A stretch of 64,000 nucleotides of DNA. Origin: Acholoe squamosa. Taxonomy: Eukaryota; Annelida; Polychaeta; Phyllodocida; Polynoidae. Both the position numbers and the translations under genes were made by a program. Numbering within the stretch: the stretch's first letter is position 1; each line of letters begins with the position of its first letter. Of this stretch, positions 8,844 through 55,962 are shown piece by piece. The stretch is taken from the NCBI GenBank assembly GCA_949317995.1, contig OX439035.1, forward strand, positions 3,586,181 through 3,650,180, given 5' to 3'. Under the pieces are notes generated by a model. The model was not told where the DNA came from. It saw only the letters and a list, made by a program, of their open reading frames with translations, and did no database searches.

Positions 8844-9390
8844 TTAATGTACTGGTTTCCCTAAAATAACGGGGTCTCCAGTTTCATTGAACTGCTCCAT
8901 GGCAGCTTTCTTATCCCTTATGAGCTCTAGGATGTGTATGTTAAACCATTCTTTACCATGATCTTTACACGTGAACTCTTTAATAGGACATGCTACATCT
9001 AGATAGTCCAGTATTTTCTTCAAAATGAAACTCCATTTTTCTGAAGGGCTAGCAAGGTTATAGAAAGTGCCCCAATCTAGGTCAGTCAGTATTCCTTCCA
9101 AATCAGATTTTGAGTAGTTTCTATAGGATCGTCTAGACATAACAACCATAGCGTAGGCCCCTTTAATTTTTTCTGCATACAGTGTAACCCCTGCTAGCAC
9201 TACTCATCCAAATGATGTGTTTTTTACGTAAATAACATGAGTTTTCACGTAAGAATGATGTAAATTGCATGAGTTGTGCTAGCTGGGACGGTAGATGATC
9301 ACTGGAAACCGTTTCACCATGTTTAATTAAATAAACACGGACGTCCATAATTTACGTCCTACTGCCCCCTACCCCCTCCATATCCCTAAT
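8844..9390 (-). pseudogene. Non-LTR linker between endonuclease and reverse transcriptase
   Basis: DLEGILTDLDWGTFYNL, ACPIKEF and WFNIHILELIRDKKAAMEQF are typical of the region between endonuclease and RT in CR1/L2/Jockey-clade ORF2 proteins. The upstream portion (from 9348) is broken by the small fold-back at 9193-9283. Its 5' border is the 9-bp target duplication of the TIR element. Confidence 0.7.
9193..9283. mobile_element. 91-bp fold-back element
   Basis: Ends read GCTAGCACTACTCAT and, on the opposite strand, GCTAGCACAACTCAT, and imperfect pairing continues about 27 bp inward. It lies inside the non-LTR coding region and breaks its frame. No target duplication was identified. Confidence 0.6.
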
Positions 9391-9392
9391 AC

Positions 9393-11425
9393 GCAGGATA
9401 CCGATGATGGCGGTCTAGCTAGTCCTGAGGACTAAGGTGTCTGCCGCGTCCACGCTGCCCCTGTTTGCCGCGTACGCAGCAGCGGCCAGCAGCAGCCACG
9501 CGCCGACATCTAGTCCTGGGGACTAGAACGCGCCTTTCCTATGCGTTCTACAGTTTAGTCCTCAGGACTAAACAGGTGGTCCCTGGGACTATGAATCTCA
9601 TCCCCAGGGCACCATGACTATTCTCTACTCTTGGATAATTATGAGCCAGGGTCTCAGTCCCAAGGACTATAATCTAGTCCCTAGGACTGTATCTTTAGTC
9701 CCTGGGACTACTGTGTAGTCCCAGGGACTATAGGCTTTGAATCTAAGTAACAATGCTGAAACTGCTAGGAACTAGATGCATGCTCATGGGGAGTCAAGGT
9801 TTAGTCCTGGGGACTAGAATTTTTGTCCCCAGGACTTGACTTGTAGCTTCAAAGCCTGTCTGTCTAGTCCCAAGGACTAAACATATAGTTCTAGGGACTA
9901 GAACATAATCCTTGGGACTAAGATACAATCCTTGGGACTAAGGCCATACGTTTTATTTTTACGACCACATGGGTTATTGGGTATGCGGAACAGCCCTCGG
10001 TGCTAAAAAAGACATAGTCCCTGGGACTAAAAACTTAGTCCTGAGGACTAAAGATTATAGTCCTCAGGATGATATTTTAGCCCTGAGGACTACACATCTA
10101 GTGCTAGTGACCTAGTGCTAGTGACTAGAGACATTCCTGGTGATTGGACGTTAGTCCTGAGGCCTACAACTTTAGTCCTAGGGACTTAAAGTGTAGTCCT
10201 CGGGCTAGAAGAATGGTCCTGAAGGCTAGAAATTGATCAACGCAGCCTTTTCAATATTTATACCCTGGTACAAGGTTTAGTCCCAGGGACTAACTGTTAA
10301 GTCCTGAGGGCTAAAGACGTAGCTGCCTGGTCCTCAGGACTAAAGATGTAGTCCTGGGGACTAGAAACATAGTCCCAGGGACTACTATTTCAGTCCAGCC
10401 CGTACTGAGGACTAGGTCTTAGTCCCGAGGACTATCTATATCTGCCAAGTCTCAAGGGGTAGGTGGGATGTAGGGTCTTAGTCCCAAGGACTATGCTCTA
10501 GGACCATAGGCCTACCTTCAGTCCTTTAGTCACCATAGGGAGGTGAAGTCACGTCACGTGCAGGCGGATTCTGAGCTCAGCATATTATCGCCCACAAGCT
10601 TGAAGGATAGGGGAAAATTTTAGGCCTGGCATAACTTTTTTAAGAATGAGAGTTGAGCCTTAAAATTTCATATATGGTGGGCCTTTGGGTCAATTCAAAT
10701 ATTGGTTATTTTAGTTCCAAATCAGAATTTTTTTTACAACATAGTTTATTGCGAGACTTAGGCTCCCTATTGGACTACTTGTAGTCCCAGTGACTACTGT
10801 GCAGTCCCAGGGAGCAAAGATACAGTCCTGGGGACTGCAACATTGTCCTTGGGACTAGAGACACAGTCCTTGGTCCCCAGGACTGTATCTTTAGTCCCTG
10901 GGACTACACAGAGCAGTCCTGGGGACTAAGAAGTAGTCCTCAGGACTAAATTTGAAGTCCTAGGGACTACATCCTAGTCACAACTACATTAGACATCAAT
11001 CAATGAATTAGTTCTCAGAACCACATGCATTAGTCCTGAGGACTAGGCAGATGTTTTTGTAGTCCTCAGGACTAAACAAGTAGGCCCTGAGTCTACGAAT
11101 TAGTCCCCAGGGCTAAAAGCTTAGTCCTGGAGACTAACAGCACAGTCTTATACAAAGTCATGCGGTCTGCAGGGTAATTCATGGGAATGTACAATTAGTC
11201 CCTAGGACAATATCCTCATATTCTTAGTCCTGGGGACTAGGCTTTAGTCCTTAGGACTTAAGCATCACATTTTTATTAGCTATAGTCCTGAGGACTACCA
11301 CTACGCCCGCGCACCTATGCGCACCGCGGGAGGCTCCGTGTAGAGTCCGCATATTTAGGTCAGCGCAGACGCGCCAGTCACCTTAGTCCTCAGGACTAGC
11401 TAGACCGCCGTCATCAGTATCCTGC
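9393..11425. mobile_element. 2,033-bp TIR DNA element packed with 15-bp palindromes
   Basis: The terminal inverted repeats are 47 bp with 45 matches (9393-9439 and 11379-11425; outer end GCAGGATAC, inner part with CGGTCTAGCTAG and the palindrome TAGTCCTGAGGACTA). The direct repeat CCCTAATAC lies immediately outside both ends (9384-9392 and 11426-11434), a 9-bp target duplication. Nine bp fits Mutator-like or Merlin-like transposases best. There is no transposase ORF, so it is non-autonomous. GC-rich subterminal segments (GCGCC-rich) lie at both ends. The interior is described in the next entry. Confidence 0.93.
9420..11396. repeat. Array of about 45 TAGTCCYNRGGACTA palindromes
   Basis: By eye roughly 45 perfect or slightly mismatched copies occur, for example at 9420, 9511, 9692, 9715, 9865, 10036, 10276, 10370, 10417, 10890, 11031, 11226, 11281 and 11382. 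The outer six bases of each half-site are nearly invariant. The central three bases vary as pyrimidine-N-purine. The spacers are different from one another, so this is not an ordinary tandem array. Palindromes thin out between about 10510 and 10770. Confidence 0.9.
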
Positions 11426-11930
11426 CCCTAATACAGACCCTAAAACTGAGACCCGGATGTCCGTCTTTGCAAAGACGGATATCAATGTTGCAAAGACAAA
11501 TGTCTGTATTTGATTGATGAACACAGTGAAACAGCCTGCTGACTAGCTGATAAAAAATGCCTGACATGGCTACAAACGGGCAGTTTGTAAATATGTTATC
11601 AATACGTGAACCACTACCATTTTCCTTTAGTCTAGTATTCTTATTTATATGGGGAGTCCAATTAAAAGTTCTACATTTCGCAAGGATCTTCCTGTAGCAA
11701 GGGGGGTCAGTTTTCTTAAAGTCAATATTGTAATCGCCACATAACCATATCTCATATTTATAGGATTCTCCAATAAGCTGCAGATGCTCGCAAAACAGAT
11801 CAATGTCTGCTCCAGGGGGTCTATAAATAGAATATACCAGTAACCTCTTATTGTCAGGTTTATTGATGTTTACCGCTAGACACTGAATGTAGTCAGATTT
11901 CAATGATAGGGTCTTATTTACACTACAATA
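11426..11930 (-). pseudogene. Non-LTR endonuclease, C-terminal fragment
   Basis: The frame encodes LLVYSIYRPPGADIDLF, then WLCGDYNIDF (the catalytic G-D-x-N motif) and SGSRIDNIFTN (the S-x-I-D motif before the last catalytic residue). It is bounded by MITE insertion at 11932 and by the 2-kb TIR element at 11425. The residues beyond are frameshifted. Confidence 0.85.
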
Positions 11931-11931
11931 A

Positions 11932-12250
11932 TGGAGTGATCATTTTTTAACAACAGGGGGGGCTGGTGGGTTTGAGGGGGGTCAGAATATTTTCAACCCC
12001 TTGACCAGGGGGGTCAGAATTTTTCCAATACCTCTGATGGGGGGGTCAAAATAATTTCACCTGTTTTCAGTGGAATACCCTGCGCGTTACTATAGGCTAA
12101 AAGGGGACGTTCGCGCGCGATTTTTGTCCCTTATGGGGGTTGTCGAAAAAATTTTACCCCCTCAAGAGGGGAGGGTCGAAATTATTTTTGCGCATCCGCG
12201 TGCAAACCCACCAGCACCCCCCCCCCCGTTGTTAAAAAATGATCACTCCC
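11932..12250 (+). mobile_element. 319-bp TAA-flanked MITE, copy 1
   Basis: The ends are TGGAGTGATCATTTTTTAAC and its complement GATCACTCCC; TAA lies on both sides (11929-11931, 12251-12253). A TAA duplication is typical of PIF/Harbinger elements. The interior has alternating G-runs and T-runs and the marker GCTAAAAGGGGACGTTCGCG. It is inserted in the endonuclease. Confidence 0.9.
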
Positions 12251-12253
12251 TAA

Positions 12254-12344
12254 GCAGCAAGCTCGGTGGGTAGGTAGCAGGCTACCCCTCCTCCTTTCTT
12301 TCTGGTTCTGTCCAGCCGAAAGTAGTACCCGCCAGGCCAGTAAG
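12254..12344 (-). pseudogene. Non-LTR endonuclease, middle fragment between two MITEs
   Basis: This island of about 90 bp encodes GGYYFRLDRTRKKGGGVACYL, the conserved G-Y-x-x-x-R-x-R...GGGV strand of the EEP endonuclease. Both edges are TAA target duplications of the neighbouring MITEs. Confidence 0.85.
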
Positions 12345-12347
12345 TAA

Positions 12348-12666
12348 GGGAGTGATCATTTTTTAACAACAGGGGGGGCTGGTGGGTTTGCCCGCGGACG
12401 CGCGAAAAAAATTTCGACCCCCCCCTCTTGAGGGGGTAAAATTTTTTCGACCCCCCCATAAGGGACAAAAATCGCGCGCGAACGTCCCCTTTTAGCCTAT
12501 AGTAATGCGCGGGGTTTTCCACTGAAAACAGGTGAAATTATTTTGACCCCCCCCATCAGAGGTATTGAAAAAATTCTGACCCCCCCCCCGGTCAAGGGGT
12601 TGAAAAAATTCTGACCCCCCCTCAAACCCACCGGCCCCCCCCTGTTGTTAAAAAATTATCACTCCC
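12348..12666 (-). mobile_element. 319-bp TAA-flanked MITE, copy 2 (opposite orientation)
   Basis: Same family and same length as copy 1 but inverted. TAA lies at 12345-12347 and 12667-12669. It is inserted 91 bp from copy 1 in the same endonuclease. Confidence 0.9.
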
Positions 12667-12945
12667 TAAGAGCTCTGTCATGTTTGGAGGAGAACTATGT
12701 CTCTGAAAAGGTGACTCCCACTCTCTGATGAGATAGAAGATTTCATCTTTTTTACCGGTAAGGCTTCTGCAGTTTAAGTGGATGACACCTAGTCCTTTAG
12801 TAGGTTGGAAAGAACCATAGTGCACAATATTTACAGCACAATTCAATACAAGAAGAAAACACAGATATATATATACAACAGGCTGTCTGCCTCTAAACTC
12901 TACTTCAGTGACAAGACAAAGTGCATACAAGGGTACCTGATACAA
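12667..12945 (-). pseudogene. Non-LTR endonuclease, N-terminal fragment
   Basis: The readable stretch GLGVIHLNCRSLTGKKDEI matches the opening of the exonuclease-endonuclease-phosphatase domain of CR1/L2-type elements (I-x-N-x-R-S-L...K-x-E). It breaks off at the TAA-flanked MITE at 12666. The endonuclease nicks target DNA for target-primed reverse transcription. Confidence 0.75.
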
Positions 12946-13520
12946 GGGTACCTGAGGTAAAATGTACTAAATGCACCGATGTACAAACCGTGGATATTAT
13001 ATTGGCCACTAGCTGGTCTGGAGCTGGTTCCCACCACACACACTGATAAGAACTGATAAGATGGGACCAGCATGTCCCTGGAAGTGGGTGTTAACCAGGG
13101 ACAAGGTACCCATCATGGTATATGGCTTATTAGTGGGGTTTACCTCAACCAGCGAAATTCAAGATGGCGGATCCACTAGGCCTCCATACTGAGTCCTATA
13201 CAGCGGGGGACGGCACTTGAAGAAGTGCAGTGGGGGATTAAAGCACTGAACAACGCAGGAGGTAGTGACAGCTGTGGAATCCCTATAGGTGTAGGATATG
13301 TGTGGGGATACATTGGTGTGATGGGGGGGGGGAGGTTTGGGATGAGCGGACCCTTAACACTAATGTATATATGTGGGTCTATTGAGGAGACAGAGGTCTC
13401 ACATTTGATGGAACATTCCAGTTTATCTCGTTCTGTGCATTTGTTCACTTCCTTGGTGCTGGCACATTAAATTTTAGTCTATTTTGTTTTTTCAGTGCAT
13501 GGAAACTTTACATAGTGAAC

Positions 13521-13647
13521 AAGTAATTAATGGATAATTGATGACTTGTGTGTGTTAGCAAAGGATAATTACACTTGGGCTGCTGCCCCCGAGTGTAATT
13601 ATCCTTTGCTAACACACACAAGTCATCAATTATCCATTAACTACTTA
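13521..13647. repeat. Long near-perfect hairpin
   Basis: Arms of about 55 nt (13521-13575 and 13592-13647) flank a 16-nt loop. The inner 48 bp pair perfectly from TAATGGATAATTGATGACTT inward. It is either a fold-back MITE or, if transcribed, a strong double-stranded RNA stem. Confidence 0.9.
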
Positions 13648-13699
13648 CTTTAGTACACGATATCAATAGATAATCAATAGAATATCAATAAATTCAAGT

Positions 13700-13976
13700 T
13701 GAAAACAAAAATTGTTCCCATTCCCTGGGGCTCGAAGCCTGCCATAGTGTGTGTACACACACTACACTATTGGTTTGGTCTGAACACGTCCCGCAGTTGT
13801 CACAGTTATGGGAGCAGCAGCAGTAGTGCTGGGGAGGGGTTGGCATTCTAACACCATCGGTACACACACCTCGGCACCCGGCAGCCGTTGATTTGGTATG
13901 AACACGAAAAAAAAGGTTGCATGGATCGGGACTCATCCCGCCTACCTCTACAAGCTGAGCGCAATGCACTACCCAC
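13700..13976 (-). mobile_element. SINE-like repeat with tRNA-type promoter, interrupted
   Basis: On the minus strand the sequence from 13976 reads TAGTGGGTAGTGCA and then GGATGAGTCCCGATCC, resembling A and B boxes of a tRNA-derived Pol III promoter. GGTACACACACCTCGG near 13858 recurs at 14304, on the other side of the MITE, with the same GGTTTG-GAACGC-GCAGCAGCAG neighbourhood. The MITE at 13980-14296 interrupts the repeat. Confidence 0.5.
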
Positions 13977-13979
13977 TAA

Positions 13980-14296
13980 GGGAGTGATCATTTTTTAACA
14001 ACAGGGGGGGGCGGTGGGTTTGAGGGGGGGTCAGAAATTTTTCAACCCCTTGACCGGGGGGAGTCAGAATTTTTTCAATAGCTCTTATGGGGCAGGTCAA
14101 AATAATTTCACCTGTTTTCAGTGGAAAACCCCGCGCGTTACTATAGGCTAAAAGGGGACGTTCGCGCACGATTTTGTCCCTTATGGGGGGGTCGAAAAAA
14201 TTTTACCCCCTCCAGAGGGGGGTCGAAATTTTTTTCACGCGTCCGCGCGAAAACCCACCAACCCCCCCCCCCTGTTGTTAAAAAATGATCACTCCC
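13980..14296 (+). mobile_element. 317-bp TAA-flanked MITE, copy 3
   Basis: Same family and orientation as copy 1; TAA at 13977-13979 and 14297-14299. It is inserted in SINE-like sequence. Confidence 0.9.
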
Positions 14297-14511
14297 TAAA
14301 CCACTGGTACACACACCTCGGTGCCCGGCTCGTCTTGGTTTGGTTTGAACGCATCGGCGTGGTTATGGCAGCAGCAGCGACAAAGATGGGGGGGGTCACA
14401 ACCCAGACTGCAGGATATTTTCACACATTGAATGTATACTAGTTATATGTGAGTGACCTCCCCGGGCTTTGTATCATATCAAGACCTGGTTCTAACCAAG
14501 CATTTCTTGTC

Positions 14512-14879: not shown

Positions 14880-15525
14880 GTGGGGTTTATCTCATAGAGT
14901 CTACCCCACTGAAAAAAAGAATTAGGGGGGGGCATGGTTTATTCTCAGTGAGTCCACCATGTTGGAAGTGGCGCATCAAGGTTTGCCTCAAAGAGCCTAC
15001 CATATAAGGAGGGAGGTTTTCCTCAGAGAGTCCACCTCACAGTTAGCCAAAAAAAAAAGTGGAGGGGAGGCTTATCTCAAGGAGTCCACCTCAGGATCAA
15101 AGGGGTTGGTAAGGGGGAAGGCTTATCTCAAGGATTTCGCCTCAGGATCAAAGGGGTTGGTAAGAGGGGGAGGCTTATCTCAAAGAGTCTGCCTCAGGAT
15201 CAAAGGGGTTGGTAAGGGGGAGAGGCTTATCTCGAGGAGTCAGCCTCAGGATCAAAGGGGTTGGTAAGGGGGGTAGGCTTATCTCAAAGAGTCTGCCTCA
15301 GGATCAAAGGGGTTGGTAAGGGGGGTAGGCTTATCTCAAAGAGTCTGCCTCAGGATCAAAAGGGTTGGTAAGGGGGAGAGGCTTATCTCGAGGAGTCAGC
15401 CTCAGGATCAAAGGGGTTGGTAAGGGGGGTAGGCTTATCTCGAGGAGTCAGCCTCAGGATCAAAGGGGTTGGTCAGGGGGGTAGGCTTATCTCGAGGAGT
15501 CCGCCTCAGGATCAAAGGGGTTATT
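14880..15525 (+). repeat. 52-bp minisatellite
   Basis: Units of about 52 bp (core GGCTTATCTC, GAGTC, GCCTCAGGATCAAAGGGG, TTGGTAAGGGGG) repeat about nine times from 15060 to 15520. More diverged units extend upstream to about 14880. An open frame runs through part of it but is repeat-driven, not a gene. Confidence 0.9.
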
Positions 15526-16300
15526 TGAATGTCTAATGTATGAGGGGGTGAAGTAGAGAAAATTGAAGCACGACTCCTAGAGAGTGAGAAAGAAAGATAT
15601 TTCAATTACCACTAATATGAGCTCAGTGAAGTCATTTCTGGTAGATTTCATGTTTGCTTAGTTCCCATGCCACTCACACGATGTCTCCACTGTGCCATAC
15701 TTTGACCATTTCCTTGCCTTCTAGCTCTGTCAGACATGGTCATACTCTAGTCTGCTACAAGGTGGCGCCAAAGCACTGGGCTCTCTCCCTGGCCATGCTT
15801 AATTGAGGCAGGGTTGAGGGGCCTATGGTTAGGAGTTTTAGAGGGACGGGGAGTGCCTAGCAGAGTGGGGGTAGAGGGAGGGTCTACCTTGGCTGAGCTA
15901 GTAAAGGACTTCTGTGGGGCCGCTTGTAGCCTTCTCATGTCTTCCTCCAGTAGTCTGGTTTTAGACATGTAGTCCTCTAAGTCCTGCTTTTGACGAAGAA
16001 GGTTTGTTTCATGGGTAGCAACTGACTGCCTGAGATTGGTATATTTTCCTTTAATAGTGTTAAGGTTGGTGTTTAGAGTGTCACAAGCACGTTCAGCTTC
16101 TACCTTTACTGAAGGAAGCCGATAATTTGATTTCTAACCTCTGTTCCAAGGTGTCTAGGTCACTGGTTTGCTGGCAACGGCTTTCATAAAATCTCGTGTT
16201 CATGATACTGTGTAAGCCCACTATCTGTTGGGCTATAAACTGTAAAGAGCATTCACCTTGGCCAGTAGGGGCGGGCAGGAAAGTCAATACCATTGGTTGT
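15526..16300. other. No recognisable gene
   Basis: This is mixed sequence. Minus-strand open frames at 15968-15747 and 16293-16093 have coiled-coil-like fragments (LLEEDMRRLQ, LDTLEQRLEIKL) and could be a remnant of a retroelement ORF1, but no motif supports this. Confidence 0.35.
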
Positions 16301-39435: not shown

Positions 39436-39439
39436 GACT

Positions 39440-40117
39440 TGTCAACGAGTCCGTAAATGATGAATAAGGATGAATACAGACGAATCAGGAATCCAGTTTG
39501 ATATCCACTTTATTCATAGAAGTCCACGAGGTATAGATGGTGATACAGTATAAAGGTGCCCAACAGTGTCCAAGCCTAGCCCTTGAGCCAAGGGCCTTGA
39601 TCTCACGTGAGTGTGTGAGGTATGAAGTATGAAGGTGGAAAGATGAGTGAGCTGCTCCCTCCACAGGTATTTGTAGTAGGAGCTGCTCACCCAGCTCATC
39701 CTAAAAATAGTATCAGGTGAGCTAAATATAGTAACTGGGGAACTCCAGTGCAGGTATGTAGGGGAGATCCCAAACATAGCACTGGGGTTCGCAGAGTTCA
39801 GTGTGGTTCTAAATATAGCTGCTGGGAACTCCCGGTATGCTGTGAGCTGCTCATGATCAATGGGCATGTCATCCAGCATGGGGAGTTGTTTCTAAACATT
39901 GTCTGCTAGGAATTTCCAGCATGCAGTGGGCTGCTTGTGATTGACGCCGTATCCTCCAGTGGGAGGAGGCGGGGTCACTGAGTGCAGTTGACACCGCCAG
40001 CCTTTGGTCTATGGGTATGGCTTGGCTTGTGGGTAGACTCGGACACTGGGTTACATGGTAGAGTCAAAGGTGAAAAATAAATATGATAAGTACAATACCT
40101 ATAACGGTCTACTGACA
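39440..40117 (-). repeat. 3' LTR, 678 bp
   Basis: On the minus strand it runs TGTCAGTAGACC to ACTCGTTGACA (TG...CA). Compared with the 5' copy I see two substitutions (CCCAACAG/CCCAAAAG near 39560, GACGCCG/GACGGCG near 39946). The poly(A) signal AATAAA (minus) is at 39509-39514. The adjoining internal sequence GGAATGTGGGGATT is a short polypurine-type tract. Confidence 0.95.
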
Positions 40118-41316
40118 AATCCCCACATTCCTACTCGATTCCACGCGAGGTTTTAAGGAGGAAGATCGTGAGAAAAGGTCTACTGACAATATGTTTGATG
40201 TCTAATAATAGGTATTACATCTTATCATTTAAGTTGAAAGTATACAGTATTAAGGAGATATTTAATATTGGTTTTTGGTTGAGCATGAATAATTTATAAA
40301 CAGTACAAAACGAAACTATGCCAAAGAGGTGTTGTTTGTAATTTTGGCAAGAAGAATATGAAAAATTCAGGTCGTGGTAGGATACAAAGGCTGGATTATT
40401 ATCTAGCACTAAAGTTCACACAAAGATAAAGGAAATAAAAACTATCCTAAAACATGCAGTTATTGGCTTTAAGGCAGACCTTGAGGTAGATAAGTTAATA
40501 CTGAAGTTTGTTTCAGTACCGGTAGGCGCTTATTATTTAGGTCTTGAGCCAATGTACAATACAATATAATAAATAAAAACAGAGGTAAGGTAATTGATGA
40601 CTGGCAAGTCGATCAATCATTCCTTATAATACTGGTAAGGCTTAGGGAGTCTGAAGGCTTTTAGGTGATATGTTTAAGGAGTTTTCTAAAAAAAAAAATT
40701 GGATTTTTGGTCCTTTATTTATTTGTAGAAGTTTTCTGTTAATTTTCGTAGAAGGTTTGTCTTAGTCAATGGAAAGTTTAGCATGTTTAGCCTTCAGTCT
40801 ACCTGGGGTTATGATTGGCTGAAAAAGGGGACAAGGTTAATACAAAAATAAATGGTGGCTCTGGCTGATATTTGGATTGGATCTCAGTTGATCCTGCAAA
40901 AATACTGGTTGCCAGCGCTTCCTTGTAAAATTTTTAGAAAAAAAAAAAAATATAAACTAGCTAAAACCCATAAATATTTGACATGGTTGGGTTTGAAAAG
41001 GTACAGTGTGAAAAGGAAAAAGAACTTTATGGCATCTTAAGATCACAAAAACCTGCTGCCTGGCTTGTGTTCTTCATAATGTTCTTATAAAGGAAAATAA
41101 ATGTAAAAATGCAGCGTGTTTTCATGGTTATGTATCATAGCCTTATACAAACAAGAAGAACTGGCTTTAAAAATCAGTTGACTAGGCTGACTGAGTCAGT
41201 GTTCATAGTGTCCATGGGCGGTCGGTGAGTGAAGTGTGTCTCTACACTTTTAGTCCATAATATTAAATACAGTTTTTTTAAAAATAAATAAAATAAATAG
41301 AGGATGGTTAATGAAA
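40118..41316. other. Provirus 3' non-coding region
   Basis: AT-rich sequence lies between the last accessory ORF and the 3' LTR. No coding motif or internal promoter was seen. Confidence 0.45.
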
Positions 41317-42045
41317 TTATTTTCTCCTTCTATGGCGACTCTGGTTTGCAAGACCCTTTGGTGGTGGGTCTTGGTGGTTAAAGACATGTGGGTTGAGGGA
41401 GCGACCTAGTGAGGGTCTTCTCCTGGATCTGGATTTTTTGGTGTTGGGGACAAAGTTTACAATTTTGCTGAAATGCATTCTGCTAGGCTTGCTTGAGTCA
41501 GGCTGCAAATTTAGATCGGAACTGTATGCAGGGTCCATGTCTATTTGTTCTGCTGAGAGGGAGGTGTCAGAGTCACTGTTCTCCTCAGATGAAGCTTGGT
41601 ATGTTTTGGGTAGGGGTCTCCAGACCTGGGTCGAGCCAATTGTTTTGAAAGTTTCTGGTCTATTGTCTTTGTTCATGCTGCATGGGCAGCTGTAGCTATA
41701 CATTAGGTGGGGACAATTTCTTCCCAGGGTGGCGAATCTAGTAGGTGGCCCTATTGGAGAGCAGACTCGTGTGCTCCAATGGGGCAGGCCGGTTGGTATG
41801 GGCGTGCCTGGTCTGCCACTATCTCCTGTTGGCCTGTCAATGCGGTCTCCGCCTCCTCGATTAGGTCGTTGGCCTCTGTATTGAAAAAACAGAACAAGAG
41901 AAGGGGTATTTTTAGTTGTGGGGTCGATAACAGTGCATGGATTACAAGGCGACCAACAAAAATACCAAATTGACAGGTAAGGCAGTGAATCAGGCAGTGC
42001 ATATTGATGAGCAGTGTCATTGGGCCGGTGTAGACTCATGGCCAA
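41317..42045 (-). CDS. 3' accessory ORF with arginine-rich C-terminus
   Basis: The open frame is 242 residues, but a strong minus-strand acceptor (TTCTGTTTTTTCAATACAG, about 41873-41891) suggests that only the part after it is coding, about 185 residues. The second half is acidic/Ser-rich (ASSEENSDSDTSLSAEQ) and then highly basic (NTKKSRSRRRPSLGRS and RHRRRK at the end). Arginine-rich tails of this kind bind RNA or act as nuclear signals in retroviral regulators and capsid proteins; the role here is inferred only. It lies downstream of env. Confidence 0.5.
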   Translation of the reverse strand: MAMSLHRPNDTAHQYALPDSLPYLSIWYFCWSPCNPCTVIDPTTKNTPSLVLFFQYRGQRPNRGGGDRIDRPTGDSGRPGTPIPTGLPHWSTRVCSPIGPPTRFATLGRNCPHLMYSYSCPCSMNKDNRPETFKTIGSTQVWRPLPKTYQASSEENSDSDTSLSAEQIDMDPAYSSDLNLQPDSSKPSRMHFSKIVNFVPNTKKSRSRRRPSLGRSLNPHVFNHQDPPPKGLANQSRHRRRK

Positions 42046-42279
42046 ATGTGAGCGGGAAACTGGAATATCCAGGGTCCAGGTTAGTTCTGCTGCGCGGCAC
42101 GGGTAGCGCCACTGTATGGGGATCTGTTATTATTTAGTTCAAGCGACAAACATTGGCTGGCGCCACTGAGCTGGCGTTTGTCCGGCGTTCGTGAAATGGT
42201 ATGGGAAAATGGTATGGTGAATGGTGTAGACTTGCCATGACCTTGTTGGGTCATGTGTAAGGGTTGTCTCAACTTTGGG

Positions 42280-42735
42280 TTAGGTGATCTTGGGTCCCAA
42301 AGGTGGGTTTGGTTGGCTGGAATTTTGAATTTTGATGATGCGCTTTTTCGGAAAAATAGGTCCAAAAATTAACTTTATGCTCCCGTTTTGGATCCTGATA
42401 TAAAAGAGGGCGGAGGCTATTTTGGGATCAGAAGGCGACTTATGACCGGCAAGGAGAGCTATAACTTTTGGATTTACCTGCGGCTCGAAAAACCACGGAG
42501 AAACCATGATTGTACGAGCGCAGTTCGTGGTGATGCCTTCAGGAATGCTCTTCCTGCTGTTGGTGCTGGTGGGCACATTCGGGTAAGTGCTGGTACAGGA
42601 TATCGATTTTTGGGTGGTTTTGTGTATTTGGGTGTGGTGCCGGTGGTCTGACGCCGTGTTTTTTTGGTTTGTTTCAGGATTGTCCTGGTGTGGGTCCATA
42701 TCGGGGAGGTACCGGTACTTTGTCACCGGGTCCAT
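42280..42735 (-). CDS. 3' accessory ORF (151 residues), unidentified
   Basis: A hydrophilic ORF, rich in Asn/Thr/Pro/His (DMDPHQDNPETNQKN, HHTQIHKTTQ), overlaps nothing larger in the provirus 3' region. No domain. Moderate to low likelihood of being real. Confidence 0.3.
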   Translation of the reverse strand: MDPVTKYRYLPDMDPHQDNPETNQKNTASDHRHHTQIHKTTQKSISCTSTYPNVPTSTNSRKSIPEGITTNCARTIMVSPWFFEPQVNPKVIALLAGHKSPSDPKIASALFYIRIQNGSIKLIFGPIFPKKRIIKIQNSSQPNPPLGPKIT

Positions 42736-43736
42736 GGGCCACCCGATGGCCCAGAGGGAGGGGCCAGTGGGCCCTGTGTCGTATTCTGATGACTTGGCCG
42801 GTACGTGTAATTTTGATTAAGTCGGTTGTTAGCCTGAATGTGTTTGAAAACTTTATTCACAGATTTGAATCTTGTTTTTGAATTTTGAATTTTGAATCGG
42901 AATTGGAATTTGTTAGAATTGTGGGTTTTTACAGTGGGGGTTTTGGATTGCTTTTTGCAGAGGTAGATGCGGGAGCGATTTGGTGTGGCTTGTCTGTGCC
43001 GAAAAACTGAAAAATGAGGACGGCTTAAGAAAACAGAAAGGAAAAAGGACTAGCTGCGGAAGGTGGCAGGCCAGATGCGATTGACTGTGATTTGATGATG
43101 ATTTTACAATGAAAAACTGTGATGACGAATAACTCGTTTGCCAGGAGCTTGATCTGTGATAATTTGATAATATATAAGAAGTCCACCACCAGTTAGAAGT
43201 TATGTTGTTTATTCTGGGATTCTAAATTGGCATGGGCGGGCTTTCAATTGTCATGCGGTTGGTATTGTTAACCTGGGTCGAAAACAAGTCTAGTGATATT
43301 GCTAACACGTGCTTATGTTATTGTTTTGACGCAGATATTGAGTGCGGTTGTCCTGACTGACGTTAAGTTGTCATGCCAACGTGGGAAAAATGAAAGAGAT
43401 TTGACGTTGGGGAGGCCGACGGCAGTGGTGAGACGCTGCGCCGGCGTTCTGACGCAGCGTTTGGCGGGGAACCAGACGCGACGTCAGAAACAAGATGGCG
43501 ACGTCTCATCGTGCGGTGGGCCTTCACAGTGAGTCGAAATAACTGTGTTATTGTGGGTCGAAACTGTGCTATGGTACTGGAGATGTTGTTAAAAAGGGTT
43601 TTATTTGTGGGTGGGGTCGGATTTAGAGCTATCAAGGATGGGGATGATCCCCACATGAAGGTGTTAGATTGGGCTATCCGGTGGATTGGGCGACCGGGAG
43701 AGTCCATTACCAGGTTATATGGGGGGTGGTCGGCGG
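42736..43736. other. Provirus 3' region, env-proximal
   Basis: No supported ORF. A 114-residue minus-strand frame (43707-43363) overlaps a plus-strand frame, and neither has a motif. Confidence 0.4.
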
Positions 43737-46426
43737 TTAATTGATCCCCACATGAGGATCAAAGTAGGTTTCTGATGAAAACTTACCGCTGGTTGATGTT
43801 GAGGGTGGTGTGAGCATCATCTCCGGTTGCTTGTAAATGTATTTGTCTTTCTTTGGCTGATGCCGGAGTGGGGTGTACTTTGTGAGCTCAGCCGGGGAGT
43901 CATGGCGATCAGCCGGCCAGGACTCACAAGGTAGTTGTATGGCGGGGTCAGTGTCACTAGAGGCAAGTTGAAAATCGGGTTGTCCTTCTGAGGAGATGAC
44001 CACTGTCATGTGGTGAGCTCCTTTTAAGACCCTGTACAGCGGTATTCTCCATAGAAGTGGTACCGGAGGATAGCGCTGCAGCGGGATCTGCCGGACTTGT
44101 CCCCCGATTATTGTCCTGATGTCAGACTTCCAATGGAGATCCAGGTGTCTGCCCAGGGGTGCCGTAAGGCGAGCTGGGGAGACCTTAGGGGCTGTGATGG
44201 TGGGGGCCCAGAGATTCTGTCCATAGATCATTTTGCCAACGGTGAAATCAAAGGTTTGACCATTAGCATGGATCTTGGCCACAATCGAAGGTGTCCTGTG
44301 GCTGTCCTGTTTGCAGTAGGGCCAGTGTCGCAGGCACCTCTTGGCGGTACTCCATGTGATGTACAGGAGGGTTGCTATTAAGATCCAGGTGAACATGTCC
44401 TGGTAGCGGTCAGGCGATTGTACAAAATCCAGATCTGTGTTTGGGGTCGTTTGTGGAGCTGGCCAGTTTTTGTTAGCCTGGCGTATCAGATCTTTAAAAC
44501 GATCCCAACTCTCCGCATTAGCCATCTTGGGTGTTCGGGTTGCTGAGACTAGTGTGATAAAGCGCGCCAATTGATTGACACGAAGATGGTTCTTAAGGGT
44601 TAATGCGCAGCAAAGTAGTGCCAGGAGGGGTGATACCAAGTGTATCCAGGGTGAGAACTGGAGGTGGTATCCTAGATGCATCAGGGAGTTAGTGGATAGG
44701 AGGGCTGATTGGTCTTTAAGTCCCTGTGCGGCTCTTTTAAGGGTTAGGGTGTTTTGGAAGAGGGGTGCTATTTTTTGATTGTGTAGGTGTTTTAATTTTT
44801 CAAAATTGGGCAGGTGAAGGGTCTGGGTAGTGGTTGCCATGGTGATGCCGGAAACATTGGCTGGAGGTTGACCAAAATGTCGCCACAGTGGTAAATTGAA
44901 GTAGGCCTTTGATATGGGTTCTAAGGTGAAATTTTGGGTGCAAGATAAATCAGAATTGGTTAAAATCATGCCGGCATTTTTAATGGAGCACAGACATGGG
45001 ACTGAGATGACTGAGTATGCTCTATTCTTAATTTCGACTTGGCCTGAATCTGTGCATTGGAGCATGGAAGTGGGATGGTCGGTTATTAATAGGAAAGTGC
45101 TGTGAGATAGGGGTTGGATAAGATTTGGTATGGGTGCTGCCATGTGTGCTTTAAAACTGCAGGTATGGTGCACCGCCTCTGGTAGGTCTAAAAATAGGGA
45201 TAGAGTGCATGTGGGGTGTGTGGCCGACAACAGAGGTAGGGGTAGGTTACAGCTGATAAGGTGGCCGAGGTCACACATATCCAGGTCAGCTTGTGTAAAC
45301 TGTATATAGTGTGAGTGGGTCTTGGACATAGCCAAGTAGCCGGGAAGTGGCTCCACCTGGGTGTGACCTACTGACTTAGTGTCGGAGGTGTCGAAAGGCA
45401 CGGGGAAGGTTTCTATTCTAAATATAGAAAAGGTGCTTCCCCCTCTGGTTATGGGTACTGGTATGGTTATTAACAGGCTCGAGTTATGGCTCCAGTGCAC
45501 ATGTACTCGGCGCTGATAATAATAACTTATGGGTAGGCCTTCTAAAATAATGCCGTGGTGTGCCTCGTGCAGGAGGCTGGATAAATTGTTTAAACCTAAA
45601 CTGAGGTCGTCTTGTGTGATGATGGATTGGGGTAGGGTGCCCTCAAGTAGATTATTAATGGTTAAGAGCAGATTTTCCAAGTCGCTTTGGAGGTCAATTA
45701 AAGACTCTATTTGAGAATTTGCTGCTGTGAATAACATTGAATAGAAGGTGTCCTGTCTGGATTGGAGTTCTAATTTTAATAATATTGATGAGATGTTAGA
45801 ATTTAAATGCTCTAATTTTCCGGAAATAAAAGATAGAGCATCATCAGTGTCGTTTTGGAATTTTGAGAAGATGTTGACAGAATTGTAATTAAATTCCGAA
45901 ATATTTAACAAGAAATGTGTGGCTAATTCTACCACGTGCATTTTGGTGGCTAACTTTTTATCCAGGTCAGACATCTCAGAATTCAAAATATCAATTTCTG
46001 GTTGAGTCCCGAGGCCTATTGAAGCTCTTAAAATGTCACCAATGACTTGGCCGGGGGCATTTCTGGCTTTTCTGATGTTTGGAGGTGAAATCAATTTTGA
46101 CAAAGTTTTTAGTGTTGTTTTTGACTTGGAGAATAGGCTCTGTATCATGTTATCTAGGGCATGGGCTGTGTGCTTAATGTATTGGGGTGCATCAGTGCTG
46201 ATGAGAGGGCTGAGTAGTTTTGGCTGACTTAGGTTCTGATCAAAGGTCAAGTTAAGGCTAAAGGTCAATGGATAGTCCATGTAATTGGCTAGTAATGTTT
46301 GGGGTAACTTGGTAAACAGTGCGCCATAGTTGGGTCTGAAGATGGTGTTCAGATTGTTGTCTGATGTTGAGGTGCAGCCGAGGAGCAGATGTAGGAATAT
46401 ACAGACTGCTAGGATGGCTGCTGCTC
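43737..46426 (-). CDS. env: Envelope glycoprotein, F-like (errantivirus/baculovirus-F class)
   Basis: The ATG-based ORF (46280-43737, 847 residues) is preceded in frame by a signal-peptide-like hydrophobic stretch (AAAILAVCIFLHLLLGC) with no ATG. This begins right at a minus-strand splice acceptor (CTCATTTTTCTAG, about 46426), so the true start probably comes from an upstream exon. A basic cleavage-type motif (RKAR, residues 70-73) is followed by a Gly/Ala-rich fusion-peptide-like segment (about 74-100). That arrangement is the hallmark of F proteins. A long helical region, many cysteines between 335 and 450, and two hydrophobic segments (about 545-563 and 629-647) follow, then a tail of about 200 residues. 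It would mediate membrane fusion if functional. Confidence 0.7.
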
Positions 46427-46593
46427 TAGAAAAATGAGAAAAAATTGAAAATTTTGAGGATTTTGAAAATTTAGATGGTGGGGTTCACTTTAAAATAACA
46501 TTAGCTCAGTCACAAATGGGATGTTAGTATGGTCAAGTATTTACAAGGGTCGGGGAATCTGTGGGTGGTAGGGTTGTTGTCACATGAAAGGTT

Positions 46594-47130
46594 TTATGCA
46601 GATGGACTGGTGCCTGTTGTCACCGTCAGGGGCGGCACACGAGCTTGAGCATGGAATCTGTTTATCTCGAAGACAGCAAACTGGAATACTATGCTGGCCG
46701 TATTCCTTATGGCCAGTTCACGTCCAATTCTGGAGTATTGGCGGGGTAAGTCCCTGAGGGGCTGTTCCGACGCTATGAGCGTGCGAGCACATAAAAGTGC
46801 TATGTATGATGCAGATCTATGATTAAACCTGCCCCATGGAGGCCGGCGGGGATTATCCCCAGCTACAGCGACCATGAAGGCTTTGATGGTTGCTGCTGTG
46901 GAGTGATTGCTCAAGTCCAGCTCCTGTCTTAGCACAGGGCTGCTGAGGTAATGTTTAATATCTTCCTGGGCGAGGAAGGTGATGAGGTGTTGCTGTTCCA
47001 TGATTATGCTCCTAATTTCAAAAGGATCCATGAGATCACTCCTGATCCCATGTGGTCCAAGGAGGCTGTGTATGGTCCATGTAGCATTTGGGCCGTGCTT
47101 ATTTGCCGGTGGGTCCAGGCTGTAAGTCAT
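46594..47130 (-). CDS. Accessory ORF B (178 residues) upstream of env
   Basis: The ORF starts with ATG (MTYSLDPPANKHGP) and reads like a globular, helix-rich protein (FEIRSIIMEQQHLITFLAQE, ATIKAFMVAVAGDNPRRPPW, SYIALLCARTLIAS). No family recognised. It has no hydrophobic signal or membrane segment. It ends about 150 nt before the env splice acceptor. Confidence 0.5.
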   Translation of the reverse strand: MTYSLDPPANKHGPNATWTIHSLLGPHGIRSDLMDPFEIRSIIMEQQHLITFLAQEDIKHYLSSPVLRQELDLSNHSTAATIKAFMVAVAGDNPRRPPWGRFNHRSASYIALLCARTLIASEQPLRDLPRQYSRIGRELAIRNTASIVFQFAVFEINRFHAQARVPPLTVTTGTSPSA

Positions 47131-48315
47131 AAAAGGAAAAAGGGGTCTAAGTGGGCTGTGAATGGGGGAGAGGTAAAGGTGGGGAATTTGCTTGGCTGAA
47201 GAGGTTTAGTAAATTGGATTATCGATGTTAAAAATTATAGGGTAGTGGAGAAGTTCTTCCACATTTTACACACACTTAAGGCTCACACCGCCATTGGTTA
47301 ATAGGGGTACCTGGGCACCATGATAATAAAGTGCTATCATGTACAATGCTAGAACGACTGTTAAAAATCCTAAATGCTAAAATAGACCCATAAGATAATC
47401 CTACCTGGGCTGGTTGCATGATGGGTCTGCCATGGTCCCTTCCCAGACACTTGTTGCCGTGCTTAAGGTGTGGTGGTATTGGTTGTGGGTTGTGTTGTGA
47501 TCAGATGTGGGTGGGCAAGCGCTTATAAACCTGAGATTGAGTTTGGCTATTTCTCAGTCTGAGATCTCCCATAGGTGGTATGTCTTGCCCTGAAAGAGGC
47601 GTAGGCCAAATATTATTGGTGGATGCAAGTGGGGTTGACGGTCCCATATGCAAATTAGGGTTATCCTGGCCTGGATTGGTTGGTGGTGAGATATTGTCTA
47701 AGGATAGCATATTGGGAAGCTTGGCGGGGGGTGTTTTATCCCTGGCCAAGGTGATATGGTTGCTATGGCGTCCCTGTAGCTTTTAAAGACCTTGAGGGCA
47801 GTGTGTTATTGATTTGTATATGTGCCACCACAGCACTTAAGGGTTGGCGGAGACAGCGGTGTAAACATGGGGTGTGGGTGTCAGAGGTCCATCTTCCTAC
47901 AATAGGTTTATCATTGGAAATAGTGGTCTTGAAGTGGTAACAAGCCGTCGCATGTGTGTATTAAAGTTTATACACAAACCGAGGATACAGCGCTGCCTTG
48001 GGCGGTCGGTATGTGGCGTGTGTAACCTAACCTAATTATTTGATAATCCATTTGCCAGTGTTTGGCGTTCCACTTAGAAGGGGTAGGTGTGTGTATATAC
48101 AGTTAATCAAGGCGGTGTTGATTTTGGATGCATAGGAATTTTTATGGCTGTTAGTATAAATAGGTTGGGCGTTGGTCTGTGACTGTTGCTGTCAGTGTGT
48201 TTAAGTGGTTGGTGTATTAATGGTTGATTAATTTGGTTGGGGCGCGTGGCGCCTGTAGGGAATGAAGGAGGGTTGTTTATATGGATGTTTGGTGTTTGAC
48301 ACAGCGACTTATGGC
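47131..48315. other. Provirus segment between pol and the accessory ORF
   Basis: Apart from the small ORF at 47501-47749, I see no coding sequence. It is probably an intergenic or intronic region of the provirus used for env or accessory splicing. Confidence 0.4.
47501..47749 (-). CDS. Accessory ORF A (82 residues), unidentified
   Basis: A Pro/Asn/Leu-rich small ORF lies between pol and env (AKLPNMLSLDNISPPTNP, LSGQDIPPMGDL). No domain. It might be an exon of a spliced accessory product. Confidence 0.35.
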   Translation of the reverse strand: MARDKTPPAKLPNMLSLDNISPPTNPGQDNPNLHMGPSTPLASTNNIWPTPLSGQDIPPMGDLRLRNSQTQSQVYKRLPTHI

Positions 48316-51300
48316 CTATAATGGACGCTTAGAAATTTTTCTTGATTTTCTGGAGGGCATGGGGCTGAAGGAGATTGTTCCCTTTTTGGCTGGCCTTCCT
48401 CTCTTTTTCTTTGTTTTGGGAGTGGTAAGACTCACATTGGAGGGGTCGTCCTGGTCGGGGTCGTGAAGTGAGCTTGTGGGCCCTGATTGCAGCCTTTTTA
48501 TAATGGCTTTGGCGCTAGCTCTTGTGATTGGTCTCCTTAGCCTTGATACATGTACTGATTTCTTCAGTATTTTTCCATCTTGTAGCCTTTTTAGAATAGC
48601 TGTGACTGGTGAAGTCATCCTCATTATGATGTAGGGGCCTGAGTATGTGGGTTGCAACTTTTTTGATGTGCATTTGACCAGCAGGGTGGGTATATGTAAA
48701 TATACCAATTGGCCTGTGTTATATGAGCTCAGTTCTGCTGAAGTGTCATGTCTGGCTTTCATCTTTTTGTGAGCAGAGATCATGTTTTCTGCAGCTCTCA
48801 TCTGAATATCATCCCTAAACTGTAGTAGGCTGGTCATAATTTTCTCCCTGGTGCTTGAGTCTTTTTCAGCTTTAATCAAGGACAAAGCTGCTTCAGTTGG
48901 TAGGTGTGTCTGCTTGCCAAAGACTAACAAATTTGGTGAGTAGCCTAAGGCGCTGCTTATAGTATTATTAATACTGAAGACTACAGCCTGTAGGAAGGTT
49001 GACCAATGCTTTTGTGATTTTGATACAAAAGCCCTGAGGGATGATTCAATGGTTTGATGTTGGCGCTCACAGAGACCTTGAGACCTAGACCAATGTGCAC
49101 TTCCTGTCACATGTTTAATGCCGAATTTTTCACAAAAATATTTGAATAGTTTTGAGACGTATTGTTGGGCATTATCTGTGTTTAGTACTGAGGGAGTGCC
49201 ATGGATACATATGACTTTTTGGAAGAAACCAAGTGCTACAACTGCAGCAGTATTTTCTTCACTTGTCCAGGCAGTCACATGCCTGGTGGCATGGTCGGTC
49301 ACCACATGTATGTAGTGGGAGCCATCAGCGGCCTTGGAAAAAGGGCCTATTGTGTCCATGGTGACATGAGAGTATGCTGTAAGCACTGGGTCACGTAGTT
49401 TCATTGGAGTTTTCAGGTTTTTGGGTCTCTTTTTGGTGGTCAGGCATGTGTGGCAAGTACCGCAGAAGTCAAAAACTTCTTTAAACATTGATCTCCAGTA
49501 ATACCTAGCCCTTATGGCTGTATAGGTTTTGACTGGACCTAGGTGTCCACCTAGGGGAGAGCAATGGGTTGCTTCCACTAAAGATTCTGTCCACTTTTCT
49601 GGAATTACAATTTGCAGTGTGGGCTCTAAAGTCTTACCCAAATTGGTATCAGTAATTCTGAAGAGGACTTCATCCAGTAAGATGAATTGGTCGTGGTTAC
49701 GTAGTATTTGATTCATTAATCCTGAGTCGTGTGGCAGGCTACCTTTTTCAATGTAGTTTGCCATGGAGGATGCAAAAAGGTCTTCCTTTTGGCTTTTAAT
49801 CAGTGTTTCTCTAGAAGGTGTCAGGGATTGGTGTTTACAGATTTCCTGAATTGCCCTTTCAGCTAGAGGTAGCACACGGCGGGAGAGCTTAGCTCTCTTG
49901 GCGTTTGCAGCTTTGATGGAGACCCTAGGTGACCTAGATTTGGCGGGCCTGCCTCTGGGGCGAGGACTGCTGCACTTAGGCTTGAGTGGGCGGGTCTTTT
50001 CACTGGGTGCTGATTGGCTGGCTGCTGGAGGTGTGTCGTCCTGAGACTGGGACTGTGCTCGAGTGAGTACACACAGGTCAGGGTTCACACTTTGCTGCCT
50101 CTCTGGGGTGCCTTTCCTTGCTATGACGCCTTTTGGTGGTTTATTTGTGCTTCCCCAAATTTTGCCTCCTTTTAATATTGATCTAGGAGGTCCCAAACAG
50201 ATGGGATTATTGGGAATTGGGTCGTCTGATTTGAAAACCTTTGTCATGGATATATCTGAAAATTGTACCCTTTTTGGTGGGAGGATAATTTTTCCTTGTG
50301 ATCTAATTGGTATTGGATCATCAGAGCCAGGGGGATATTTTCTTCTGGACAGGCAATCTGCCACTAGATTAGCTCTGCCTTGTAGGTATTTCACTTCAAA
50401 ATCATAAGACATAACAGTATCTACCCATCTTGCCAATCTGCCATTGGTGATATTTTCCTTCTTGTTGAAGAGGGAGACTAGGGCTGTATGATCTGAATAT
50501 ACCTTGAAGTGAGTGCCGTCTACATAATGGTGGAACTTTTTGACAGCGAAGATTATCCCAAGTAACTCTTTGTCAGTTATTCCATATCTGGTTTCCTGAG
50601 GTGTTAGACCTCTCCCAGAGAATTCAATGGGCCTATAAAAACCATGTTCATCTACCTGTGTGATAACTGCTCCTAAGCTGAAATTGCTGGAGTCTGTGAA
50701 GATGATGAAGGGTTTGTTATAGTCTGGGAATTTTAGGATTGCCTCAGTGCAAATTGATGCTTTGATTTTCTCAAAGGCTGTTTGACACTGAGTGGTCCAT
50801 TTGAAAGTACCCTTTGTGGCTTCATATAGGGGTTTCATTATATGGGCGAAGCCTCTAATGAACCTCTTATAAAATTGTGCCATTCCATTGAAACACCTAA
50901 GGTCGTGGATGTTTTTAGGTGCTGGGAAGGTTTTGACTGGTGAGATTTTGTCTGGGGAAGGTGAGATGCCGTGTTGATCTAGGGTAAAACCTAAGAATTC
51001 CATTTTGGTGGTGCCAAATTCACATTTTTCTGACTTTAATTTGATGTTTCCTTTGATAAAAAGTTTTAGCACTTCATCTAGGTCTTGCAGGTGTCTTTCC
51101 CATGTGGGGCTGTATATGGCCACATCATCCACATAGGCTACTGCATTTCTGTATTTGCATTTCATGAGCAATTGTTCCATTACATTCATGAACGACAAAC
51201 CAGAGGTTTTTAAACCCATGGGTAATACTTTGGCCATATACCTTGTGCCATTGGCAGAGAAAGTTGTTAAGGGCCTTGATTCTTTAGCTAGAGGAATCTG

Positions 51301-52800: not shown

Positions 52801-52803
52801 CTA
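52801..52803 (-). promoter_or_regulatory. In-frame UAG between gag and pol (candidate readthrough site)
   Basis: Gag (end 52801) and pol share one frame, and pol is open from the next codon (GAC ACA GGG GAG GGC). A single amber codon followed by G and a G-rich stretch is the arrangement used by gammaretroviruses to make Gag-Pol. In most gypsy elements a frameshift does this job. Confidence 0.7.
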
Positions 52804-55800: not shown

Positions 55801-55911
55801 GTCTATCGGGGCGGCGTACTGTGTACTAGTGGCTTCTTGCTGGTCTCTGTCTTGAGATGTAGGGATACGTTGTGGGGCTGGCTCCTTTGGTAGGGTCTCA
55901 CTGTTGTCCAT
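52801..55911 (-). CDS. gag: Gag polyprotein
   Basis: The protein has 1,036 residues and starts at the first ATG after the primer-binding site (MDNSETLPKEPAPQR). The first ~400 residues are disordered, rich in Pro/Ser/Thr. A coiled-coil-like stretch follows (SDRINRNIDGMRSEIFRAID), then the retrotransposon gag homology region at about 690-850 (AQWFFTNIFDKP, FLSRFNQPD, ETVEEYIADMTLLL, YLINGLKDEIKNVVL). There is no CCHC knuckle. Nucleic-acid binding is probably by an Asn-rich and Arg/Ser-rich C-terminal region (RSRK, GRSKSQEGNRSRSKSS). It ends ...DNIE at UAG, after which pol continues in the same frame. It forms the capsid. Confidence 0.92.
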   Translation of the reverse strand: MDNSETLPKEPAPQRIPTSQDRDQQEATSTQYAAPIDSSPDALQLDPVLPAHRRTHKQTPVSSNTLHFSSTIVDTNTGAPTSTPAGAPPPGLNLTLPGYSPSESPPLRLGGLQSTTYSTPENQSPGYLHLDSHLEERSNSLQEALEAAGRSPSSSSDSDPQCTPDLSWDNLTVPDIQAHPSVADNYWRSRLDSAIHRWRENRLNTGRVQLIPTGATPSYQCGESPSVFLDRINRILEEQWQDNSNPINLLRPHQNPQPDSNPPGGNPRPYYPYSTSEEDRATPPAPNSSLSTPPRARSFERPYPTHRPRRRVQSSSPQRPNTPVFYRLQRSLDSAARRGDLVATTPILHRNSHFPAHLQTESTSEEDTEVTFPHLHRAPAYPNMATAAPPPEYNQDDMTRNIVRECTQAVNDSLSNLLTGQMNLLSAEIKRIGDDSSCQLSRINDRLNDMDTWKSHLENDIGQIHRKAAQDNADVLRRSEIASANLSDRINRNIDGMRSEIFRAIDRTRTPTSQGQNSLFSPTNTRLPPSGQSSHVMGTSTRMPTSVPVGYRLSPPSLFQNTTRMVATGATPTQQGATHAGLGNSATTHQMAPSTTRPSPVAATSLSGSVYNNVYIPHQAHTPYNNPIPMYSLFTNTPPAQAAAHQPAAQSTPMIPNLGQSNFSAPTGYRSFEPERLTSAQLSCFNKPEPFDKPSPYRSAARFLAEFKFYIRNAYPRSPTMHASCMYTFLKGRAAQWFFTNIFDKPIMYDTEAVYAAFLSRFNQPDPATIIKGYRNRKQQPKETVEEYIADMTLLLSNSNLDESVQVDYLINGLKDEIKNVVLSDSPKSIREAETAALKQELVMEAAKAAHASNRTSDLCAMNYNNYNGQRNNNNNNNNRSRKDQYNNNNYNNKPPGNGNIKQYDDKPKSGYNQNQQGYNNPRPGSNSRSGSKNRYQSPGRSKSQEGNRSRSKSSDTRNNFVFIPVASTPTNTRQVSFQKLLVPADFPIPDDWTQQQKKSRDPTPGKIDNKKTEDNHHDNQPPDSGQGEHYNDNIE

Positions 55912-55943
55912 GGCTCATGAGAGGTGGTAACTGTGGGATGATA

Positions 55944-55961
55944 CGTGAGGGTTTTCCACCA
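55944..55961 (-). other. Primer-binding site of the provirus
   Basis: One base inside the 5' LTR, the minus strand reads TGGTGGAAAACCCTCACG, beginning with the TGG that pairs with tRNA CCA. The tRNA was not assigned. Only about 50 nt separate the LTR from the gag ATG, an unusually short leader. Confidence 0.65.
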
Positions 55962-55962
55962 T

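Follow-up and report, generated by a model that had tools for sequence, protein, structure and literature searches.

A non-autonomous transposon of Acholoe squamosa with a body largely of one YNR-centred palindrome: a candidate array of dimer-binding sites

What kind of element carries one and the same 15-bp palindrome in both of its ends and tens of times between them, and what may the palindrome be for? The question is raised by a transposon of 2033 bp at positions 9393-11425 of the window, that is, of the whole stretch of 64,000 nucleotides analysed here (C1:3586181-3650180) from the genome of the polynoid annelid Acholoe squamosa (1.48 Gb, 63 contigs). The transposon lies between two copies of CCCTAATAC, the 9-bp target site duplications at 9384-9392 on the left and 11426-11434 on the right, which are identical, and it is bounded by a left terminal inverted repeat (TIR) at 9393-9439 (plus strand) and a right one at 11379-11425 (minus strand), which agree at 45 of 47 positions, with a weaker match between the ends extending to 68 bp. 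The TIRs, the direct repeat and the lack of an open reading frame, all reported by a first-pass annotation made from the letters alone, are thus as described, the longest stop-free stretch in any frame being 62 codons; Rfam returned nothing at the gathering threshold. The TIR of the family starts with GCAGGATAC, the termini being GCAGG, and has the terminal palindrome at a fixed spot, 28-42 bp from the end (9420-9434 on the left and 11384-11398 on the right). The array of palindromes runs in a left part from the terminal palindrome onward (9420-10493, 30 sites) and in a right part up to the other terminal palindrome (10782-11398, 20 sites), both counted at up to three mismatches. Nested between the parts is an insert of some 230 bp (approximately 10537-10768), which contains no palindrome sites and is absent from another copy, L042, uninterrupted there; this insert was not in the first-pass annotation. 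Its imperfect inverted ends are AGGGAG and CTCCCT, with AT on both flanks.

The sites were defined by the pattern TAGTCC-NNN-GGACTA (TAGTCCNNNGGACTA) and accepted at up to three mismatches. In the window element 21 exact sites, 17 with one mismatch, seven with two and five with three were counted, 50 altogether, or cumulatively 38 at up to one mismatch and 45 at up to two, the latter being the figure of about 45 given before. The remainder of the window has no site at up to one mismatch, one at two and 15 at three (16 in all). All 21 exact sites of the window fall inside the element, while 100 shuffles of the window produced none, and 500 dinucleotide shuffles of the element itself gave no exact site and, on average, 0.012 sites with one mismatch, by which a chance origin of the array is ruled out. 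Constancy at the twelve outer positions is 84-100% in the window element and is partly built in, because the sites were picked at up to three mismatches; the spacers between the sites are A+T-rich and variable.

The genome contains many relatives of the element. The TIR 21-mer was found, at up to two mismatches, at 493 + 476 = 969 ends (reversed control, 3 + 0), and a longer form of the TIR that includes the first half-site gave 337 + 353 matches with none in the control, in a set overlapping that of the 21-mer. Exact palindromes number 7138 genome-wide against 64 for the reversed-pattern control. The copy number is about 490 by either count, since 7138 exact sites at 14.4 per element correspond to 496 elements and 969 ends to 485. 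The 28 two-ended elements that were scored measure 823-4008 bp and carry 19-79 sites (mean 42); their target duplications match at 9/9 in 12, at no less than 7/9 in 22 and at fewer positions in six, and an additional copy, split by a nested element, has a 9/9 duplication. Consequently, the further copies with the same TIRs and 9-bp duplications, for which the first-pass annotation had proposed to search, exist in number. Two TIR types, A and B, were seen; of type B, L005 and L006 share 98.4% identity along 1520 bp, the copies compared with L042 are 88.8-98.8% identical to it over the aligned pieces, and in L007 the match to the window element is confined to both ends of the latter, as in a deletion derivative. 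With multi-copy TIRs, 9-bp target duplications and no transposase, the family is one of non-autonomous cut-and-paste DNA transposons, as its first description as a TIR transposon had implied. No match to the two exact patterns was obtained in viral contigs, from which records of the source genome are possibly excluded.

Apparent long members of the family were resolved otherwise. The ends C1:65370029 and C1:65433740, which seemed to delimit an element of 63.7 kb, are a single end present twice through an inverted segmental duplication; in this interval (L058/L059, C1:65369850-65433950) the outer ends are 99.2% identical over 2766 bp with reverse-complementary flanks, and 95 bp of transposon end with a single palindrome stand on each side. 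The supposed 35-kb element at C3:7294874-7330258 turned out to be an ordinary copy into which another element is nested. In that region (L060/L061, C3:7294700-7330450), the palindrome element with its 9/9 duplication is interrupted by an insert of about 34 kb, which has inverted 233-bp ends starting with AGTAGTATAATAG, a 6-bp duplication AATGTC and two frames that we take by eye to be dUTPase-like, and which is possibly a Polinton/Maverick-type element. A common coding remnant in the long copies was rejected as well, the interiors of L047-L051, L057 and L062 sharing only pieces of the family or other repeats.

The superfamily and the autonomous partner were sought both in the copies and in the genome. 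No transposase-like or otherwise convincing coding frame, judged by length and by eye, was found in the copies of up to 4 kb. The genome search gave 36 MULE-domain matches, of which the six loci read had no TIR within 9 of 27 mismatches and no site within two, 46 Merlin-type (IS1595-type transposase) matches, none near a TIR place among the first 100 or so listed, 20 P-type matches and 14 KDZ matches. On C1-C3, where the exact-TIR lists are nearly complete, one of 31 MULE, Merlin, P and KDZ matches lay, by eye, within 20 kb of a listed TIR end, namely a P-type frame of 511 aa at C3:49137349, 18.7 kb from the TIR end C3:49118640; since the rough chance estimate is 0.5, this one near match is no evidence of a link. 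The searches for MULE, Merlin-type, P and KDZ proteins have yielded neither a transposase nor another binder convincingly linked to the family. At C3:49118609-49118660 a pair of outward-facing element ends is separated by 10 bp, which gives the look of two copies inserted next to each other. One MULE of the genome has rotifers, a mollusc and moths among the named relatives in a protein search. The target duplication of MULEs is given as 8-11 bp in the part of the source used here (PMC6446971), and that of 9 bp in the present family fits Mutator-like elements, although it is not unique to them. From the other side, the P superfamily duplicates 7-8 bp of target, so that 9 bp speaks against it. 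Membership in the CACTA group was rejected, the ends being GCAGG rather than CACTA and the duplication 9 bp rather than 3 bp, and so was that in the Foldback elements, since instead of long TIRs built of tandem repeats there is a TIR of 47 bp (weakly, 68 bp) and a body filled with the repeats.

As to the palindrome, one suggestion of the first-pass annotation was that it is itself a tiny mobile hairpin; as such, or as a cruciform or single-stranded hairpin, it would have spread within the element. Every site is indeed a near-perfect inverted repeat of 6 bp around a loop of three bases, and in the window element both arms were changed jointly three times against 1.76 expected, two of the changes being compensatory. 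However, in copy L005 the arms were changed together once, without compensation, against 2.84 expected, and in a set of 154 distinct sites, drawn from 21 elements of the 28, ten joint changes, five of them compensatory, stand against 17.9 expected, a test in which the picking of sites at up to three mismatches trims double changes. None of the 455 exact sites in 245,019 bases of 41 loci is isolated from an element; as most of these loci were chosen around elements, the genome-wide claim rests on the balance of the counts, in which 496 elements estimated from the sites and 485 from the ends leave no pool of free hairpins. The palindrome is, therefore, not independently mobile and appears to belong to this transposon family, its presence in unrelated DNA, which had been proposed as a check, being nil in these loci. 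Independent insertions of the kind made by GC clusters or double-hairpin elements were not seen, and that class was rejected. Considering also that the rule governing the centre of the site, described below, is no rule of pairing, the hairpin reading was abandoned as highly improbable.

The three central bases follow a pyrimidine-N-purine (YNR) rule, as the first-pass annotation had noted, in 50 of 50 sites of the window element, in 1146 of 1174 sites of the 28 elements and, genome-wide, in 7005 of the 7138 exact sites, compared with 21 of 64 in the reversed-pattern control. Positions 7 and 9 vary independently of each other: complementary pairs number 27 against 25.2 expected in the window element and 24 against 26.3 in L005. 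This independence, with no overall excess of joint change in the arms, speaks for a protein dimer rather than a hairpin. The possibility of a mutation bias was checked in 15 of 22 two-ended copies compared with a majority reference, where the private changes outside the sites comprise 91 transitions and 85 transversions, and those at positions 7 and 9 four of each, so that the YNR rule is not being kept by the decaying copies. In the reference array, on the other hand, position 7 of the 98 folded half-sites (49 sites) is T in 55, C in 43 and a purine in none. With the sites treated as independent events, 43 transitions and no transversion would arise with a computed probability of 5e-13, but as the sites descend from one another, the number of events is overstated and the real strength lies below this figure. 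We read the YNR rule as a functional constraint that probably acted in the copies that transposed. Between copies, no significant selection on the sites was detected, whether in the changes that are shared (per column, 0.039 against 0.057; p 0.14) or in those that are private (0.089 against 0.096; p 0.71), and a lower rate of change in the site cores (CpG excluded, 1.46% against 2.31%) did not stand once private and shared changes had been separated.

The spacing of the sites was likewise not in the first-pass annotation. Intervals of 20-22 bp between neighbours make up 28 of 49 in the window element, where 5000 random placements gave 4.5 on average and 13 at most, 26 of 45 in L005 (random mean 5.2, maximum 13) and 610 of 1146 across the 28 elements. 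Two helical turns of DNA take about 21 bp, so that neighbouring sites at such a distance stand on one face of the DNA. The regularity is local, no clear single period or common helical phase being found across the whole window element, and a second spacing class of 28-31 bp, 17 pairs in four elements, does not correspond to a whole number of turns. That second class, the 20-22 bp period with self-similarity inside the element and the lack of a significant excess of conservation of the sites between copies would all be accommodated by a neutral minisatellite, i.e., a unit of 20-21 bp duplicated in the transposon and decaying, with function limited to the two terminal sites. This we regard as rather improbable, because the half-sites have drifted less than the spacers, and position 7 of the reference array has no purine although half of the neutral changes are transversions; decay at equal speed would not leave position 7 free of purines, unless most of the T/C differences predate the duplications.

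The YNR rule, the spacing and the independence of the half-sites are compatible, in turn, with the binding of a host protein, where the element would have multiplied the site of a transcription or chromatin factor, for the sake of transcription or opening, or for the titration of a host repressor. The AP-2 consensus is GCCYNRGGC and the inverted repeats of nuclear receptors have a 6+3+6 layout; the core CCYNRGG resembles the former, including its YNR centre, and the layout of the site the latter. Nevertheless, the base beside the core is T here and G in the AP-2 site, the transposition machinery is suggested by the site that every TIR of the copies has at a fixed place, and the exact sites are, by the balance of counts, rare outside the family, while a host factor would be expected to have sites of its own elsewhere, possibly inexact ones. 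We consider a host protein unlikely.

The reading preferred here, and held with moderate confidence, is that of a non-autonomous cut-and-paste transposon with a body made of a degenerate array of 40-50 sites for a homodimeric protein that reads TAGTCCY and is most likely encoded by a transposon. The multiplied binding site, which the first-pass annotation had also put forward, thus turns out to be the best explanation, in view of the YNR rule, the independent half-sites and the regular spacing. Each subunit of the dimer would read one half-site TAGTCCY with the central base pair between them left free, the predicted recognition sequence being TAGTCCYNRGGACTA, and neighbouring dimers 20-22 bp apart could align on one face of the DNA. 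An autonomous partner, either lost or unseen, would most likely supply the bound protein, as its transposase or as an accessory protein; the fixed site in each TIR would help to position the cleavage, whereas the remaining sites would load the protein, raising its local dose, and aid the pairing of the two ends, with a possible gain in mobility. The period and the self-similarity inside the element suggest that the array grew through duplication of a 20-21 bp unit, the half-sites probably under selection and the spacers drifting.

Internal arrays resembling recognition sites are already known from Foldback, Muta1 and CACTA elements, and an element mostly of one YNR-centred palindrome represents an extreme variant of them. 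Muta1, a MULE of Aedes aegypti classed as a type-2 Foldback element, is described as carrying, in each TIR of 145 bp, a 12-bp repeat nine times over with spacers of 3-4 bp (PMC5225508). According to the part of that description used here, it shares with other MULEs of the mosquito and with the present element duplications of 8-9 bp, many non-autonomous copies and short spaced repeats near the ends, but its repeats lie within long TIRs of coding elements and only its 10-bp terminal motif is called palindromic (PMC5225508), while in the present family, which has no known coding copy, the TIRs are short and the body between them is filled with 19-79 palindromic sites. The soybean CACTA elements Tgmt* and Tgm1 likewise have subterminal repeats forming palindromes, in Tgmt* 12 at the right border and two at the left, regarded as possible binding sites in the excerpted account (PMC2613891). 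They differ in CACTA ends, a 3-bp duplication, a coding element of 20.5 kb and unequal borders (PMC2613891), as opposed to the 9-bp duplication, the lack of CACTA and the array spanning the whole element here. In Galileo of the P superfamily, a THAP domain binds repeated sites of the TIR; several sites in repeated DNA are common to both, the binding being experimental in Galileo and predicted in the present element, and the portion of the Galileo report cited here gives three sites in TIRs of 1.2 kb rather than tens of palindromes (PMC3688188). MULEs with tandem TIRs have still been amplified (PMC3310237), as has the Foldback element Tetris, apparently non-autonomous and with 220-bp repeats (PMC4079207). 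Multiplied terminal or internal repeats are thus compatible with continued amplification in both, as far as these partial accounts go, but it is whole TIRs or 220-bp repeats that are duplicated in them and not a 15-bp site tens of times. No description of an element like the present one was found in open-licence papers, a scope that leaves subscription journals and repeat databases aside, nor do the motif or TIR strings occur in print in such papers.

A further idea, which we offer tentatively and think doubtful, is that of a transposon consisting wholly of binding sites, a parasite of the transposase, whose cleavage ends and 40-50 dimer sites spaced by two turns would recruit a cooperative assembly and out-compete the autonomous copy, perhaps to extinction. 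If so, about 490 copies, each having some 42 sites of which 14 are exact, would constitute a genome-wide sink for the binding protein and a concrete route by which a non-autonomous element may silence its own source. The role of the repeats near transposon ends is hard to test where these are low in number and belong to coding elements. In the present family, natural copies differ in the number of sites (19-79) but hardly in their ends, which makes the question of a gain in mobility versus the soaking up of transposase directly testable, and from the YNR rule it can be sharply predicted which bases the protein reads.

The window holds several other repeats. At 11926-14299, repeats in direct and inverted orientation are clustered around ATCACTCCCTTA/GTTGTTAAAAAATGATCACTCC, together with runs of G or C, and pieces related to this cluster were found inside or beside other copies of the palindrome element. 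The cluster is followed by a tandem array with a period of 52 bp at 15047-15566. An LTR retroelement of about 17 kb at 39439-56469 has identical 508-bp repeats (39439-39946 and 55962-56469) and, on the minus strand, a gag-like frame at 52801-55911 and a Ty3-type pol frame at 48316-52755, along with a further frame of 847 aa at 43737-46280 that has no Pfam match. Finally, a Foldback-like inverted repeat extends over 59160-61115, its arms being 59160-59360 with 60915-61115 (95%) and 59429-59731 with 60574-60876 (96%).
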